Assembly (NCBI RefSeq): GCF_021917145.1
Contig: NC_061080.1
Span: 10,367,631 to 10,431,630 of the forward strand
From: Hypomesus transpacificus
Taxonomy: Eukaryota > Chordata > Actinopteri > Osmeriformes > Osmeridae
Length of the DNA stretch: 64,000 bases
Direction of reading: 5' to 3'
Shown here: in pieces, positions 67 through 62,259 of the stretch
How positions within the stretch are numbered: the stretch's first letter is position 1
Layout: each line of letters starts with the position of its first letter
The notes under the pieces: model-generated
The model's database searches: none
What the model was told of the DNA's origin: nothing
What the model saw: the letters and a program-made list of their open reading frames with translations, nothing else
Program-made: the position numbers and the translations under genes

Positions 67-2855
<2,789 letters not shown>

Positions 2856-4075
2856 CACACACTAACACACACACACACACAAACACACACATGCCATCTG
2901 ACTCACACACACACACACACCATCTGACACACACATGTTGTCTGAGACACACACACACACAGACCATCTAGTGCAGCCTGGCCCAGGCTGGGACTGAAAC
3001 TCCAGTCGGTATGACGATGATGGAGTCGGCAGCAACGACAGCTGGACGCTCTGCGGGACGCTCTGTGGGGTCTGATGTCAGAACTGTCCAGACTCTCTGG
3101 AGAGAAGTATGTCTGCGAGGTCAGACTGAGACCTCTGTTGTCTTCAAACAGGCTGTGAGGAGCGAGGATCATCTGTAGAGCTAATCTCTTTCTACCTCTG
3201 TCACACACTCTCACTTTCACATTTACTCTCTATCTCTCTGTACCTCACTCACACTCTCCCAATCTCTCTTTCTGTCACTACCTCTCTCCCAATCTTTTAT
3301 TGATGTGGTGAATGTGTGAATAAGGAAGCGACAGGGCAGGGTGTGTCGCTAGAGGCGGTTGCCTCTAGGGTGTGTTGGTTGCAATCTTTGCTCTTGGGTT
3401 AAGGACAAATTTATTTTCTGCAACCAACCAGGAGCAGTGGCATCTGTTTCACTTCCTGTTGACTTCCTGTTGTGCCAAGCAAAGCCTTTCTATTGGCTCA
3501 AACCACTTCTTCTTCTCATCCTCATATCTGTCTTCTTCTGTCCTTCTAGTCCTCATATTTCTGTCTTTTGTTTTAACCGTTCCATGAGATTCTCCCAGTG
3601 CATCTTAAAGGGTGTTTTTCTCTTAAATAAAAGGCCAGGTAAAGAGGAATACTCTGGAAGGAAGATCTGGATCTTTAAGTTTTCAGTTTAAGGTTAAATA
3701 ATTTGTCTCGCTTGTCCATTTGTTTACCATGGAAGGGATGCTGGTGCACTTGGCCCAGGGGATTGTGCTCACCTGGGTTAGGACTGCTCCTCTGTACAAC
3801 ATGGTATAGGGCTAGTGTGCTTGTTTGTAACTAATGTTCCTGGCCATATTCTTTTTTTAATCGTTAAAGAAAATCTTCTGTCAGTGTGCAATATACTGGT
3901 CAAATTGTTGGGTTGTAGTTGTGTGTTAATATGATTAATATTTGATTAAATTAAATCTTTATTTTTTACATTTTGATTAAATGTTGCACTTGAAAGGAAT
4001 TCTAGAACTTTCTGCGCTGGTATTCTGTTCTCTAAGATGAAAACATGCCAATAAAGTTTTTATTTAAGATTATAA
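2856..4075 (+). other. bfar: BFAR 3' UTR
   Basis: No coding features follow the stop. The segment starts with CA-rich tracts and runs through unique sequence to an AATAAA at 4050-4055 followed by a T-rich stretch. An earlier AATAAA lies at 3626-3631. The exact cleavage site is inferred. Confidence 0.6.
4050..4055 (+). terminator. bfar: Canonical poly(A) signal AATAAA
   Basis: AATAAA with a T-rich downstream stretch, in the right orientation about 1.2 kb after the BFAR stop. The competing signal at 3626 could give a shorter transcript. Confidence 0.55.
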
Positions 4076-4312
4076 TCCCTCAGTTATTTATTATTGGTTG
4101 TTACATATGTAACAAGCACAACAATCGCTCTTGTGTCTGAACCAAATCTATACACAGCTAGGTGAATTACCCAAGTTACTCAAAACATTAGGGAATATAT
4201 ATGCCTCTATTTTCCTTATTTTGTGAAGCTGGGGTGAGGGTATGGACATCAGTTCGGGTTTTATTTTATTGGCCTGCCGCCTACTGTCTTTTGTTGACTT
4301 TTGGGTTTAATA

Positions 4313-4333
4313 CATGGGCGTATCTAGCCCTAT

Positions 4334-4370
<37 letters not shown>

Positions 4371-4620
4371 CTGGAGCCCCCCAAAACTTTTGTTAGCCCC
4401 CACCCCCCAAACATTTTAATAAAAATATTTTAAATCTAAATTTGTTAATTTCTTTTCCTAAAACCCACTAGAGGAAACTATTTAAAAGGATATTTTCAAA
4501 ATGTTATTCTGGGGGAACACCCCCCTCAGACCCCCCTAGTTTTGCTGGGTCACAAGAAAAATAATATGTTTTATCTAGGGGCTTAGCCCCCCCAAAAGTA
4601 GGAACCTAGATTCGCCCCTG
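4313..4620. mobile_element. Short hAT-type MITE with a 35-base poly-G run
   Basis: The 308-bp element is flanked by the direct repeat GTTTAATA at 4305-4312 and 4621-4628, an 8-bp duplication as made by hAT transposases. Its ends are CATGGGCGTATCTAG and, on the other strand, CAGGGGCGAATCTAG. Inside lie two copies of a palindromic GGGGGCT/AGCCCCC motif and an uninterrupted run of 35 G (4336-4370). There is no coding capacity. It sits between the arms of an older inverted repeat (4250-4285 and 4629-4660). Confidence 0.8.
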
Positions 4621-4660
4621 GTTTAATAGTGTAGGCGGCCGGCCTCACTCCCGAACTGTA

Positions 4661-5423
4661 GAAGCCTAGCGGTTAACATGAACGTTGGTTGCAATCTTTA
4701 ATTAAACGCTAAAGATAAGCATCAATGGGAATGACTCTGTTTTAAATGACAGTTTAAAACTGTGTCAAACTTTAGCACGCCAGAAATTCTGTGGTAAATT
4801 GTTGCTCCCCCGTCAGGTCAGTGTTAAAGGAACGTTTGGTTAAGCAACAAAACAGGCTAGGCCTACGGTTAGTTTTGCAGCATAAGTTGCCGTATTAACT
4901 GAGCTTGAACAATGTTCAACTGGCTTTTACGGAGCCGAACCAATTTGAAATGAGTCAGACAAACGTAGCCTACATAAACCTGGCTTATTTGGTTCAAATA
5001 GCTTTATGGAACAGGCCTCAGGTAAACTAGGAAAATACATCAGAGTTGTCCTATAATAACAATGCCTGGTAAACTGTACACTGCCTCAGCCTCCAGTGTG
5101 GTGGAAAACTATTTAAACTGTCCGATAGCAGACAAATCACATTGATGGGTGTGAGTGATCTATCACTTGCTATAAATAATGCCAAAATGCATCATTATAC
5201 TTCTTTAAATATGTAATATTGGGTTCAATACAAGAGGATATCAAATGTAAATAGGGGGGAACTATAATCACTGGTAAATCTTGATGTTGTTTACATCCGG
5301 CATTAATTGGGCTACGTACCGGAAACGGAAAAAATAGCTTGGACTAGCTAGTTGAGTTGTTAGTAGAGTAGAGTTAGTTAGTTAGGAAGCTTAAGGGCCA
5401 TATCCGTTGAGCAAAGTTCGAAA
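4661..5423. other. Intergenic, no recognised feature
   Basis: I see no open coding segment or clear repeat here. The last 150 bases (ACATCCGGC, TACCGGAAACGG) occupy the position of a promoter for the zinc-finger unit that follows, but no conserved block is recognised. Confidence 0.4.
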
Positions 5424-10745: not shown

Positions 10746-11126
10746 TAGCCTGACGTTGTCATACTCATAATTCTAGTCAGAATATGAGTCTGAAAACTCT
10801 CCGCTGGGCTGTGACTACCGGGCGTGTTTCAACCAAACTCGTAAAACAAATGCCTCTTCGCTCAATTGGATAGACCTACAACCAATCAGAGCAACATAAT
10901 ATGTTGTTTGTTGAAAACGAATTCAACCCAAGCGCTCTTTCGTGACGTTGTTGATTACGTTACTGTTGATCATCTGTCCATCATCGTATAAAGCCCGCCC
11001 TGGCAATTTCATTGGTCCGTCCCGAGTCTGGTTTTCTGTAGTTGTCCCCAATACGAGATTCTCCATCCCAACTTCCCGAACAAATCTTTTAGTGGGCGGG
11101 GAGAAGTTGGGCTAGCAGCCAGGCTA
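10746..11126. mobile_element. 381-bp MITE, 9-bp target duplication (TAGCCTG family, short copy)
   Basis: The element is flanked by the direct repeat GCCATTCTC (10737-10745 and 11127-11135). Its ends are TAGCCTGACGTTGTC and, on the other strand, TAGCCTGGCTGCTAGCC. Both termini match the 782-bp element at 56281-57062, of which this is an internal-deletion form without coding sequence. The 9-bp duplication is what Mutator-type transposases make. Confidence 0.8.
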
Positions 11127-54400: not shown

Positions 54401-57400
54401 ATAGGGAGGCCTCACAAAGTGATGTCATAATGTTACGGCCTTCACAGTCACCAGATCTCAGCTCATTCTAACACCCAGGTGATCATGTGACCCCCCCTCC
54501 TCGACAGCATAATTCTAGACACAGCAGAGTATAACATGAAGGTATGAATATCAGACCTATTCGTTGTAGCTTGATCTCAGGTTGAGTAAAAATATCCAAC
54601 AGCCGTTGTAGCTGCACGCTCTCTTCCTTGGAACGAGAGATTTCTTCCTGGTACCCTGCAAACGGTTTATCAACGGCCCAGTAAATCTTCAAAGTTGCTG
54701 TTGTCAGTATTTCACCAAAAAGTTCTCTCATCACATTTAATTGAGTTATTCTGGCGTTTAAAAACTTGGACTCTTCGGTAAATATAGGATCTGTAGTTTC
54801 AGACTGCAGTCCTTGGAGCAGCTCTTCCTCCTGACTGGTCCACAGCTCCTGTTCCTCTTTAATCTGTGGGGGCTCCAGGAGAGAGAGCTGCTGCACATCT
54901 AAGGGAAAGAGAACAGTTATATTTAGCCACCATTATTTTGGGATAGAAACCATTTTAACTGTGCAAGTCACCTTGTCACAGGTAGACTTATTGAGGACCC
55001 TACACTGTTTAGTGAGGGTGGTTTGGCGCATTCTACTTGAACTCCCCTCGCCGACCAACGCATGCTTCGCGTTGAGGTGGTATAGGTTACTTTAGGCTGG
55101 TATTGCTTCTGTGAAACGATAACATTCAGTCATTTAGCATTCAGTCATTTAGCAGACGCTCTTATCTAGAGCGATAACGTCTTCCCGCAGAGTGTGCATA
55201 TCACTTTGGTTTTATTGGATGTTGCATCTCAGTTTTTTTGGAACACAAACTTCTCATCCAGAAGTTGCAGATGAAAGGTGAAATTGTGGGTATATTACGT
55301 AAAATGCGTTAAACAAAAATAACGAATTAATCCTGTAATTTTATCATAACGCGTTAACACGTTATTTTTCACAGCCCTAAAAATTTGACATCTGGAAAAT
55401 AAAATACATTTAAGACATGTTGTCTCATAGTCTACTACGATATCCTTCTCCATAATATTCAAATCTCACTCAAACATACTTCAGATACTTTATCAACCAC
55501 AGATTGATCTTAATATTGAACAAGACAGTTTCTATTTTGTTGAACTCAGTCAGCTGCTGGCTTCTTTTGCGAGTCTTGTTAGTAGAGTCTTGTTAGTAGA
55601 GTCTTGTTAGTAGAGTCTTGTTAGACAAGACTTGTAGTCTTGTCTGCCATTTGTTACAGGAGCGCAGCTGCTGCTGAGGCTAAAGGCCGATCTATACTTC
55701 TCCAACTCCGTTACGGACAGACGCACGCACGGAGTCGGACGGATTGGTTGACTTTATACTACTCCGACGGCTCTGCGTGCTGAAAGCAATTCACCGCCAG
55801 AACAGTAGATGGCGCTGCACTGCGATGCTAGCTAGGTTATTGAAAAGTCGGAGCAAATGTACAAATTAGCCGTTTCATCAATAAAATAAGCACATTTTCA
55901 ACAACTACACTAACCGTTTTCTTTCGCCTCCCCTTTCGAATTCAGATTTCAAATTACTAGACAAAAAATGATATCCTGAAGAAAGTGGATTTTGAGGGGT
56001 ATAGCTCCATAGACCTCCATTCATTCTGCACTCACTCGTTAGCGCCCTCACATGGAACTGCAACCAGTTCAGAACCCGGAAGTTTCCCGAGAGTGGCAGT
56101 TCTCTCCATAGACATGGTTCTCTCTACAGAAGCAAAATCCAAATTTAGCGGAAGTACGTAGGAGGGCAGAGCCAGGTAGCTTAAGATGAGGATGCACGCG
56201 CAATTAGCTTGACTACTTAAATCTGACTTGAATTAGTAGGACTGCGTGAGCTGAAATTGTCCTTTATGGCACCGCTTTAGTAGCCTGATGTTGTCATACT
56301 CATAATTCTGGTCAGAATATGAGTCTGAGAACTCTCCGTTGGGCTTTGACTACAGGGCGTGTTTCAAACGAGCCTGGAAAACAAATGCCTCTTCGCTCAA
56401 TTGGATAGATCTACAACCAATCAGAGCAACAGAGTATGTGACGTAGCCTATGTTAAGCACCGCATAGTTGTTGTCAACAGAACTAAACTACAAGCAGACT
56501 TGAAGTATGCTTGAAGAATGAATACAAACGATTTTTGCCGGTGTTGTAAAATTAATTTAAGGGTAGGGAGAGTACTTGTTCACACGGTCAACCTTTTTGA
56601 GCGAAACAATAAAGGGCAATGCATATACGAACAAGTTCTCCGTTTAGGATTACAACTCCATCGGGGCCAGCTGATAAATTAAACTTTTACCGAATCCCGT
56701 AGGAAGGACGGCAAAAACATATTTTCCATTTACAAATGCCTTGATTGCGTCTCTCTGTTCCTCTTTCAAAATTAATGCGCTGTCGATGTCTTCTAAAACA
56801 GACTCGATGGCAGAATCATAACATCCCAGATCTCCAGCGGTAGCCATGTTTGTTCAAAACGAATTCAACTTAAACGCTCTTTTGTGACGTGGGTGATTAC
56901 GTTACTGTTGATCATCTGTCCATCATCCTATAAAGCCCGCCCGGCAATTTAATTGGTTCGCCCTGGTTTTCTGTAGTTGGTCCCCAATACGAGACCCTCC
57001 AGACCCAACTTCCCGACCAAATTTTTTTTGGGCGGGGAGAAGTTGGGCTGGCAGCCAGGCTACCGCTTTAGCCCCGCTTGACTAATTAAACTTATTCAAG
57101 TCTGGTTTAGGTTTAGATTTTTTGAGCGGCCTTTATGAAACAGGCCCCCGGGCCTTACGTTCTATACTGATCTGTTATTGTTTACGTTCCAAAAAAGGTC
57201 TTGGTGGGCAAACTTTTTGGCTCATGGGCTACATTGAACTTTTAAACCATAGACTATAAGGTAGTTATTTGGCGGTTGGTTGGACCAAGCCTTGGCCAAA
57301 AATATGTTGCGTTCTAACTGTCCACCCTACCTGTTCGGTGTATCTTGATCTCCGGCGGAGAAACAATGTCCAACAATCGTTTGAGCCGCGCGCTCTCCTC

Positions 57401-59270: not shown

Positions 59271-59478
59271 ACCTTTCGAAACCTTTTCGAAAATATCTAA
59301 AGTGGAAGGTAACGGTATCTAAGGTGGAAGGTGCTCCTTGCTTGGCACCAGCACATACAACAAGGGAGGAAGTAAAGCATATAAATACCCACTGGACAGG
59401 AAATCAATTCAAACTCGTATAATTTCTCAATAGATAAACCAAACTGGTCTACTGGCATAAAACATTACATCATTCACA

Positions 59479-60359
59479 CTATGGTTTCTCTCCTGTGTGT
59501 TTTCTCATGTGACCAACAATACTTTTTTTGTCAGCATATTGTTTGTCACATTGTTGACACTGAAAAGGTTTCTCTCCTGTGTGTGTTCTCATGTGACCAA
59601 CAACACTACCTTTGTGAGCAAATCGTTTGTTACATTGTGGACACTGGAAAGGTTTCTCTCCTGTGTGTGTTCTCATGTGACCAACAACACTACCTTTGTA
59701 AGCAAATCGTTTGTTACATTGTTGACAATGGAAAGGTTTCTCTCCTGAGTGTGTTCTCATGTGACCAACAAGATTACATTTCTGAGCAAATTGTTTGTTA
59801 CATTTTTGACACTGAAAAGGTTTCTTTCCTGTGTGTGTTCTCATGTGCATAATCAAAAAAGATTCAGATATAAAAGTTTTGTTACATTGTTGACACTGAT
59901 GTATTGTTTTTCCTGTGTGACTTCCCTGTGGTCTATTGTCCCTTGGAAGAGCCTCATTGTTTTGTGTTCTGTTCTGTAAAAGCAGCACTCCTCCATGTTC
60001 CTCCTCCTCCAAACTCTGAGCTGCAGGACAGTCTGGAGCTACAACAGAGAGGGGCTGAGAGTCACTGCCTGGTTCTGGTGCTGCATAGTCTTGTACATGA
60101 GGCTCTTCGTTGATTTGCTCCTCAGTTGTGTTGGTGGGTAGAGAGTCTCCTTCTCTGTCCTCCACTTTAACAGTCTGGACAAAATCTGAACATTTAGAGG
60201 AGCTCTCCAGATCAGAATAATGTTCCACACTGAGAGAAGTGAATATGGTGTCTGTAGTTTCAGACTGCAGTCCTTGGAGCTGGTCTTTCTCCTGACTGGT
60301 CCACAGTTCCTGTTCCTCTTTAATCTGTGGGGGCTCCGGGCGAGAGAGCTGCTGCACAT
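59479..60359 (-). CDS. C2H2 zinc-finger exon Z8, 5 fingers (copy A)
   Basis: The finger exon has acceptor CTAG|ATGTGCAG (exon start 60359) and 293 codons before the stop. VQQLSRPEPPQIKEEQELW, acidic spacer (VKVEDREGD, INEEPHV, where the usual IKAEP is lost), then five fingers with contact residues such as Q,C,N,G; Y,G,S,G; H,G,S,G; D,K,S,G. The last finger has Tyr for the core Phe. Between this exon and the upstream copy there is no separate exon 1, so a transcript would need the exon 1 or middle exon at 63-64 kb and would have to skip the Z9 finger exon. Spliced to a 193-nt exon 1 it would make 357 residues. Confidence 0.8.
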
Positions 60360-60489
60360 CTAGAGGAAAGAGAACAGTTATATTAACCCACCATTACTTT
60401 GCAATCTTACATGTTTGACAACAAAAAATATGCCATTTACACCCAAACACTGTGAAATGGAAGGGATTAATCAAATGTAATTAGTCTTC

Positions 60490-60990: not shown

Positions 60991-61248
60991 TCTCAGCTCA
61001 ACACCCAAGTGATCATGTGACCCCCATCCTAGACACAGCAACCTTTCGAAACCTTTTCGAAAATATCTAAAGTGGAAGGTAACGGTATCTAAGGTGGAAG
61101 GTGCTCCTTGCTTGGCACCAGCACATACAACAAGGGAGGAAGTAAAGCATATAAATACCCACTGGACAGGAAATCAATTCAAACTCGTATAATTTCTCAA
61201 TAGATAAACCAAACTGGTCTACTGGCATAAAACATTACATCATTCACA

Positions 61249-62129
61249 CTATGGTTTCTCTCCTGTGTGTTTTCTCATGTGACCAACAATACTTTTTTTG
61301 TCAGCATATTGTTTGTCACATTGTTGACACTGAAAAGGTTTCTCTCCTGTGTGTGTTCTCATGTGACCAACAACACTACCTTTGTGAGCAAATCGTTTGT
61401 TACATTGTGGACACTGGAAAGGTTTCTCTCCTGTGTGTGTTCTCATGTGACCAACAACACTACCTTTGTAAGCAAATCGTTTGTTACATTGTTGACAATG
61501 GAAAGGTTTCTCTCCTGAGTGTGTTCTCATGTGACCAACAAGATTACATTTCTGAGCAAATTGTTTGTTACATTTTTGACACTGAAAAGGTTTCTTTCCT
61601 GTGTGTGTTCTCATGTGCATAATCAAAAAAGATTCAGATATAAAAGTTTTGTTACATTGTTGACACTGATGTATTGTTTTTCCTGTGTGACTTCCCTGTG
61701 GTCTATTGTCCCTTGGAAGAGCCTCATTGTTTTGTGTTCTGTTCTGTAAAAGCAGCACTCCTCCATGTTCCTCCTCCTCCAAACTCTGAGCTGCAGGACA
61801 GTCTGGAGCTACAACAGAGAGGGGCTGAGAGTCACTGCCTGGTTCTGGTGCTGCATAGTCTTGTACATGAGGCTCTTCGTTGATTTGCTCCTCAGTTGTG
61901 TTGGTGGGTAGAGAGTCTCCTTCTCTGTCCTCCACTTTAACAGTCTGGACAAAATCTGAACATTTAGAGGAGCTCTCCAGATCAGAATAATGTTCCACAC
62001 TGAGAGAAGTGAATATGGTGTCTGTAGTTTCAGACTGCAGTCCTTGGAGCTGGTCTTTCTCCTGACTGGTCCACAGTTCCTGTTCCTCTTTAATCTGTGG
62101 GGGCTCCGGGCGAGAGAGCTGCTGCACAT
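61249..62129 (-). CDS. C2H2 zinc-finger exon Z9, 5 fingers (copy B)
   Basis: Same sequence as Z8. This copy is the nearest to the middle exon (63318-62977) and exon 1 (ends 63828), so it is the more likely to be expressed: 193 + 881 nt gives 357 residues without, and 471 with, the middle exon. Confidence 0.8.
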
Positions 62130-62259
62130 CTAGAGGAAAGAGAACAGTTATATTAACCCACCATTACTTTGCAATCTTACATGTTTGACAACAAAAAATA
62201 TGCCATTTACACCCAAACACTGTGAAATGGAAGGGATTAATCAAATGTAATTAGTCTTC

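Follow-up and report, generated by a model that had tools for sequence, protein, structure and literature searches.

The AcademH lineage of the Academ superfamily of DNA transposons was reportedly treated by Kojima in 2020, in Mob DNA 11:15, under a title that is said to name animals and fungi. According to the published description, AcademH elements encode a helicase and make target duplications of 9 or 10 bp, whereas AcademX elements encode a nuclease and make duplications of 3 or 4 bp, and these lengths have been related to the encoded helicase and nuclease (PMC10045372). A 2013 publication already names "RecQ Helicase in Academ" (PMC3627910), RecQ is also found in KolobokH, a DDD/E transposon (PMC9587614), Academ is present in zebrafish, medaka and stickleback (PMC4746887), and the AcademH lineage is also treated in PMC10799480, with related literature in PMC8290104, PMC12210899 and PMC4522978. 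The present analysis concerns a 782-bp element at positions 56281-57062 of a 64,000-nucleotide stretch of Hypomesus transpacificus DNA (the window), which is located on contig C21 of a 437-Mb assembly. This element very probably belongs to AcademH, the Academ lineage that encodes a helicase, and has lost its interior by deletion; it is similar to a miniature inverted-repeat transposable element (MITE) and derives from a full-length parent with a helicase and a transposase. MITEs are short, numerous and near-identical elements that are formed by internal deletion of a parent. The first-pass annotation knew of no such transposon and proposed a possible class of its own, but AcademH (PMC10045372) and RecQ in Academ (PMC3627910) were already in print, and the helicase-bearing kind of transposon appears to have been described before.

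The element starts with TAGCCTG and finishes with CAGGCTA, which are exact 7-bp inverted ends, and it is bordered exactly by a 9-bp direct repeat. Two open frames lie within it, a Cys-rich frame on the plus strand and a helicase frame on the minus strand. The features are as follows.

56272-56280, no strand: target-site duplication, left copy, 9 bp, CCGCTTTAG
56281-57062, no strand: non-autonomous, internally deleted DNA transposon of probable AcademH type, 782 bp, as judged from its copies, their duplications and the alignment to the parent on contig C8
56281-56287, plus strand: left terminal inverted repeat TAGCCTG, 7 bp, extended by ACG in the 19 other copies examined
56281-56660, plus strand: left arm, 92% identity with the end of the C8 element that bears the transposase gene start
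56518-56682, plus strand: remnant of the transposase N-terminus (MNTNDFCRCCK..NLFE..; frame MNTNDFCRCCKINLRV..NLFE.., start 56518), 54 open codons, parent-like to about 56660 and then joint sequence
56658-56660, no strand: deletion joint, CCA as 3-bp microhomology, with the loss of about 7.2 kb of parental sequence
56658-57062, minus strand: right arm, 95% identity with the end of the C8 element that bears the helicase gene start
56650-56847, minus strand: helicase N-terminus left as a remnant, motif I included (Walker A, PTGFGKSLIYQL; frame LPTGFGKSLIYQL, start 56847), 65 open codons, parent-like from 56847 down to about 56658
57056-57062, minus strand: right terminal inverted repeat CAGGCTA (TAGCCTG when read inward)
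57063-57071, no strand: target-site duplication, right copy, 9 bp, CCGCTTTAG

The inverted ends, the 9-bp duplication and the inward-pointing Cys-rich and RecQ-type starts had all been pointed out in the first-pass annotation and were found as described. However, it called the gene order head to head, and the two genes are convergent (tail to tail), both pointing inward from the ends. The 65-amino-acid helicase start matched Pfam DEAD at 8.8e-06 with 26 bits, exactly the cut-off. Its best PDB match was a weak one to an "ATP-dependent DNA helicase" (3.7e-4), followed by helicase Q1 (0.0014). The majority of the 24 distinct PDB sequences matched at E <= 0.1 were named helicase Q1, Q4, Q5 or Bloom, while two were XPBII and the top two were labelled only "ATP-dependent DNA helicase". 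The Cys-rich start of the window element gave no Pfam family match.

The 782-bp element was then used as a query against the genome, with the best 40 of 1778 first-look candidates scored. This search gave 46 matching pieces, and 40 of them spanned all 782 bases at 96-100% identity, the window's own copy counted. The 20 best-scoring of the 40 scored copies (L001-L020), which are possibly younger than the remaining copies, were cut out. The 9-bp duplication was exact in 17 of these 20, carried one mismatch in one (L003) and was absent in two (L017 and L019); further duplications had been proposed as a check, and because 17 of the 20 are exact, the ends and the duplication of the window element are not due to chance. 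The same 20 copies diverged from their majority sequence by 0.26-1.15%, and this near-identity suggests recent amplification. The search for an empty site with the joined flanks of the element found no copy spanning the joint in the window, where the right flank alone was matched, by repeats. Directly left of the element (window about 55916-56116), the left flank holds another repeat, about 200 bp long, which was found at 88-96% identity in at least 39 other places of the genome, the best 40 of 1952 candidates being scored. Copies L007, L033 and L019 are flanked by sequence of other copies at the same site, CAATACGAG, on both sides in L007 and L033 and on the right only in L019, and this site is perhaps a hot spot for self-insertion.

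The genome was also searched with the recQ_fam profile. The best 49 of 1015 candidates were scored and gave 53 matches, none above the model cut-off, which comprised five host RecQ loci (assigned by exon pattern), many short element copies and a few others. Six of the other candidates were examined. The parent proved to be L048, a copy of the longer deletion form was recognised in L053, and L050 is a fragment like the element on contig C374 described below. L049, L051 and L052 showed no match to the window element. By eye these three resemble ordinary DEAD-box genes, and L051 and L052 match the C374 helicase at only 35-37% over 68 residues.

The parent at C8:12384057-12392046 (L048, L054 and L055) is 7990 bp long and is flanked on both sides by GGCAGACAG. 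Its ends align to positions 378-782 (95.4% identity) and 1-380 (92%) of the window element, so that the internal-deletion form proposed at the outset now has a parent with matching arms. Since the two arm alignments overlap by CCA, the window form arose by a single loss of about 7.2 kb, and its 3-bp joint lies at 56658-56660, where the first reading had put a single junction near 56660. In the C8 interior two genes run inward from opposite ends: one for a RecQ-type helicase and one for a transposase in several open segments, with a Cys-rich protein at its start and Pfam DUF6589 within. The helicase pieces matched DEAD (1.8e-11), Helicase_C (2.7e-12) and recQ_fam (6.9e-15), and DUF6589 was matched at 4.6e-20 in the longest transposase piece and at 1.3e-24 with the segments joined; two C8 pieces had Pfam matches below threshold only. 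When 1041 bp of this interior was used as a DNA query, three places in the genome were found (three of three candidates scored), namely C8 itself, C374 (67%) and C1 (68%). At the sensitivity of the DNA search used, C8 is the sole copy with this interior.

A second full-length element was found at C374:884286-891565 (L046 and L047). It is 7280 bp long, begins with TAGCCTGG, ends with CCAGGCTA and has the duplication GCTATGCTT on both sides, and the 9-bp duplication is exact in both full-length elements. The plan is like that of C8, with the helicase from one end and the transposase pieces from the other. The C374 helicase matched DEAD (1.8e-15), Helicase_C (1.1e-19) and recQ_fam (3.8e-26), and its first part matched RecQ-type PDB chains, the best at 2.5e-09 (1oyw_A). 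DUF6589 was matched at 3.5e-11 in the C374 transposase and at 7.5e-06, below the cut-off, in a second piece, while six further transposase pieces gave no Pfam match; all eight C374 transposase pieces (eight of eight) matched C8, at 31-74% identity. Blocks common to the C8 and C374 transposases, read by eye as candidates for the aspartate-aspartate-glutamate (DDE) motif, are FDN(F/L)DF-Y (starting SIIFDN), GGDRLTEGN and DLHLEHLNN. Contig C1 carries a C374-like fragment with helicase and DUF6589 pieces. A tRNA-Leu gene lies about 180 bases from the left end of the C374 element (L046 25-287).

A full element that codes for both a RecQ-type helicase and a transposase is present in the same genome. 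Both full-length elements carry DEAD and Helicase_C, and because two of the two carry it, the helicase is not a one-off captured exon; neither this case nor interiors lacking the helicase, either of which was to count against the first interpretation, was seen.

Shorter relatives of the same kind were also numerous. The helicase start as a query gave at least 150 genome matches (best 150 of 1541 candidates) and the Cys-rich start likewise at least 150 (best 150 of 608), and the two lists share loci. Eight loci with longer open frames (L033-L040) were picked out as possible full-length elements but belong to a second deletion form, which measured 836-890 bp in the seven of eight with both ends located. 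Their 9-bp duplications were exact in six of the eight and had one mismatch in another, and L038 lacks located ends. The helicase frame of this form extends to ..NPVAIVVSPF, taken for helicase motif Ia, in L034 and in L053, a further copy that had been fetched as a helicase candidate. A third deletion form of 381 bp, with the repeat GCCATTCTC on both sides, lies in the window itself.

10746-11126, no strand: second deletion derivative in the window, 381 bp, derived from a parent of this kind, with GCCATTCTC as the 9-bp duplication on either side

On an 8151-bp C8 stretch the joints fall at 524/7677 for the L034 form and at 280/7900 for the 381-bp form, and the window arms reach 469 and 7684.

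The link to Academ was examined through the transposase. The genome search with DUF6589 gave five places from six candidates, each above the cut-off (C374, C8, C1, C6 and C369), and the open frames matched on C6 and C369 are long and have no recQ_fam match near them among those listed. The C6 locus (L056) holds a 1500-codon open frame at 660-5159, for which Pfam gives only DUF6589, at 27.7 bits (cut-off 27). By eye, the stretch EEADTRIL...FTGCDTTSAF in this frame looks XPG-like and the tail is rich in Cys, which we take to resemble the nuclease-bearing Academ lineage, and the product of the frame is perhaps a nuclease-bearing Academ protein.

Several observations weigh against the assignment to AcademH. 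The comparison of the L056 frame with the C8 or C374 transposase by BLASTP was not significant (best E 0.19), and the link between them therefore rests on one weak profile match. DUF6589 is presumably the Academ transposase core, and no mention of it was found in the literature searched. The elements were set against AcademH by the helicase and the 9-bp duplications of its published description. The recQ_fam model was the top NCBIfam match in four of four pieces scanned, but all were far under the whole-protein cut-off. On C8, the Cys-rich piece, two other transposase pieces and one helicase piece had no Pfam family match. The C8 helicase frame also has a stop in its first coding segment; the parent looks damaged, and because of this stop there is no intact autonomous copy among the elements found.

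A new cut-and-paste superfamily with a RecQ helicase, separate from Academ, would fit the lack of a significant BLASTP match between the C8 and C374 transposases and the Academ-like 1500-amino-acid frame, to which they are linked only by the weak profile match, and the comparison with AcademH was by description. We consider such a superfamily improbable, since a helicase together with 9- or 10-bp duplications is the published AcademH description (PMC10045372) and a RecQ helicase in Academ was reported earlier (PMC3627910); it was rejected mainly on this literature, with DUF6589 as weak support. The literature search, in which the end sequence was little used as a query and which did not extend to Repbase, found no paper naming the family of the window element, and this family may well have been described already. 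It is very unlikely that the element is an unrelated MITE with fragments taken up from two host genes, one of them RecQ: the window copy, with gene starts only, would allow this, but C8 holds both gene regions within the same ends, the diverged C374 element has the same arrangement, and the five host RecQ loci lie elsewhere. KolobokH or another Kolobok lineage, which would also bring a RecQ helicase, is hardly credible and was rejected on duplication length, because Kolobok duplicates TTAA whereas the duplications in window-type and longer-form copies are 9 bp long and varied in sequence, and the transposase here matches DUF6589.

The single deletion that removed about 7.2 kb and was closed at CCA left 380 bp and 405 bp of the two ends of the parent. 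Full-length copies may provide a transposase that still recognises both ends of the short copies and would have moved them in trans by cut-and-paste, with staggered cuts 9 bp apart, and recently. The helicase, also supplied in trans, might help to open or process the strands as the element transposes. The gene starts in the short copies would be remnants with no function of their own. Only tentatively do we suggest that the self-encoded RecQ helicase is essential to transposition, for example in opening the ends or the target or in setting the 9-bp stagger, in a system whose recent working in this genome would be shown by the many near-identical short copies. No new transposon class is revealed. 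An abundant short repeat with near-identical best copies now has its parent identified, two full-length helicase-bearing Academ-like elements are added, and the natural deletion forms hint at how little end sequence is enough for movement.

Elsewhere in the window, frames with ..PEPPQIKEEQELWTSQEEEQLQGLQSET.. recur between 7087 and 63415, including an alike pair at 59385-60393 and 61155-62163, which we take to be a zinc-finger gene cluster.

In comparison with known systems, the elements share with AcademH a helicase, found in two of two full-length elements, next to a transposase, and target duplications of 9 bp, found in window-type copies, the longer form and both full-length elements. No difference was seen in the features compared, and the window copy is a deletion derivative without a complete gene. 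AcademX is approached through the weak match of the DUF6589 profile to its presumed member L056 (27.7 bits), and differs in its 3- or 4-bp duplications and in having a nuclease instead of a helicase. KolobokH likewise holds a RecQ helicase within a DDD/E transposon, but has another transposase and another duplication length, TTAA against the 9 bp found here. Like MITEs in general, the window element is a multi-copy deletion derivative that has kept both ends of its parent and lost the interior, but at 782 bp it is long, and both gene starts can still be read as frames.
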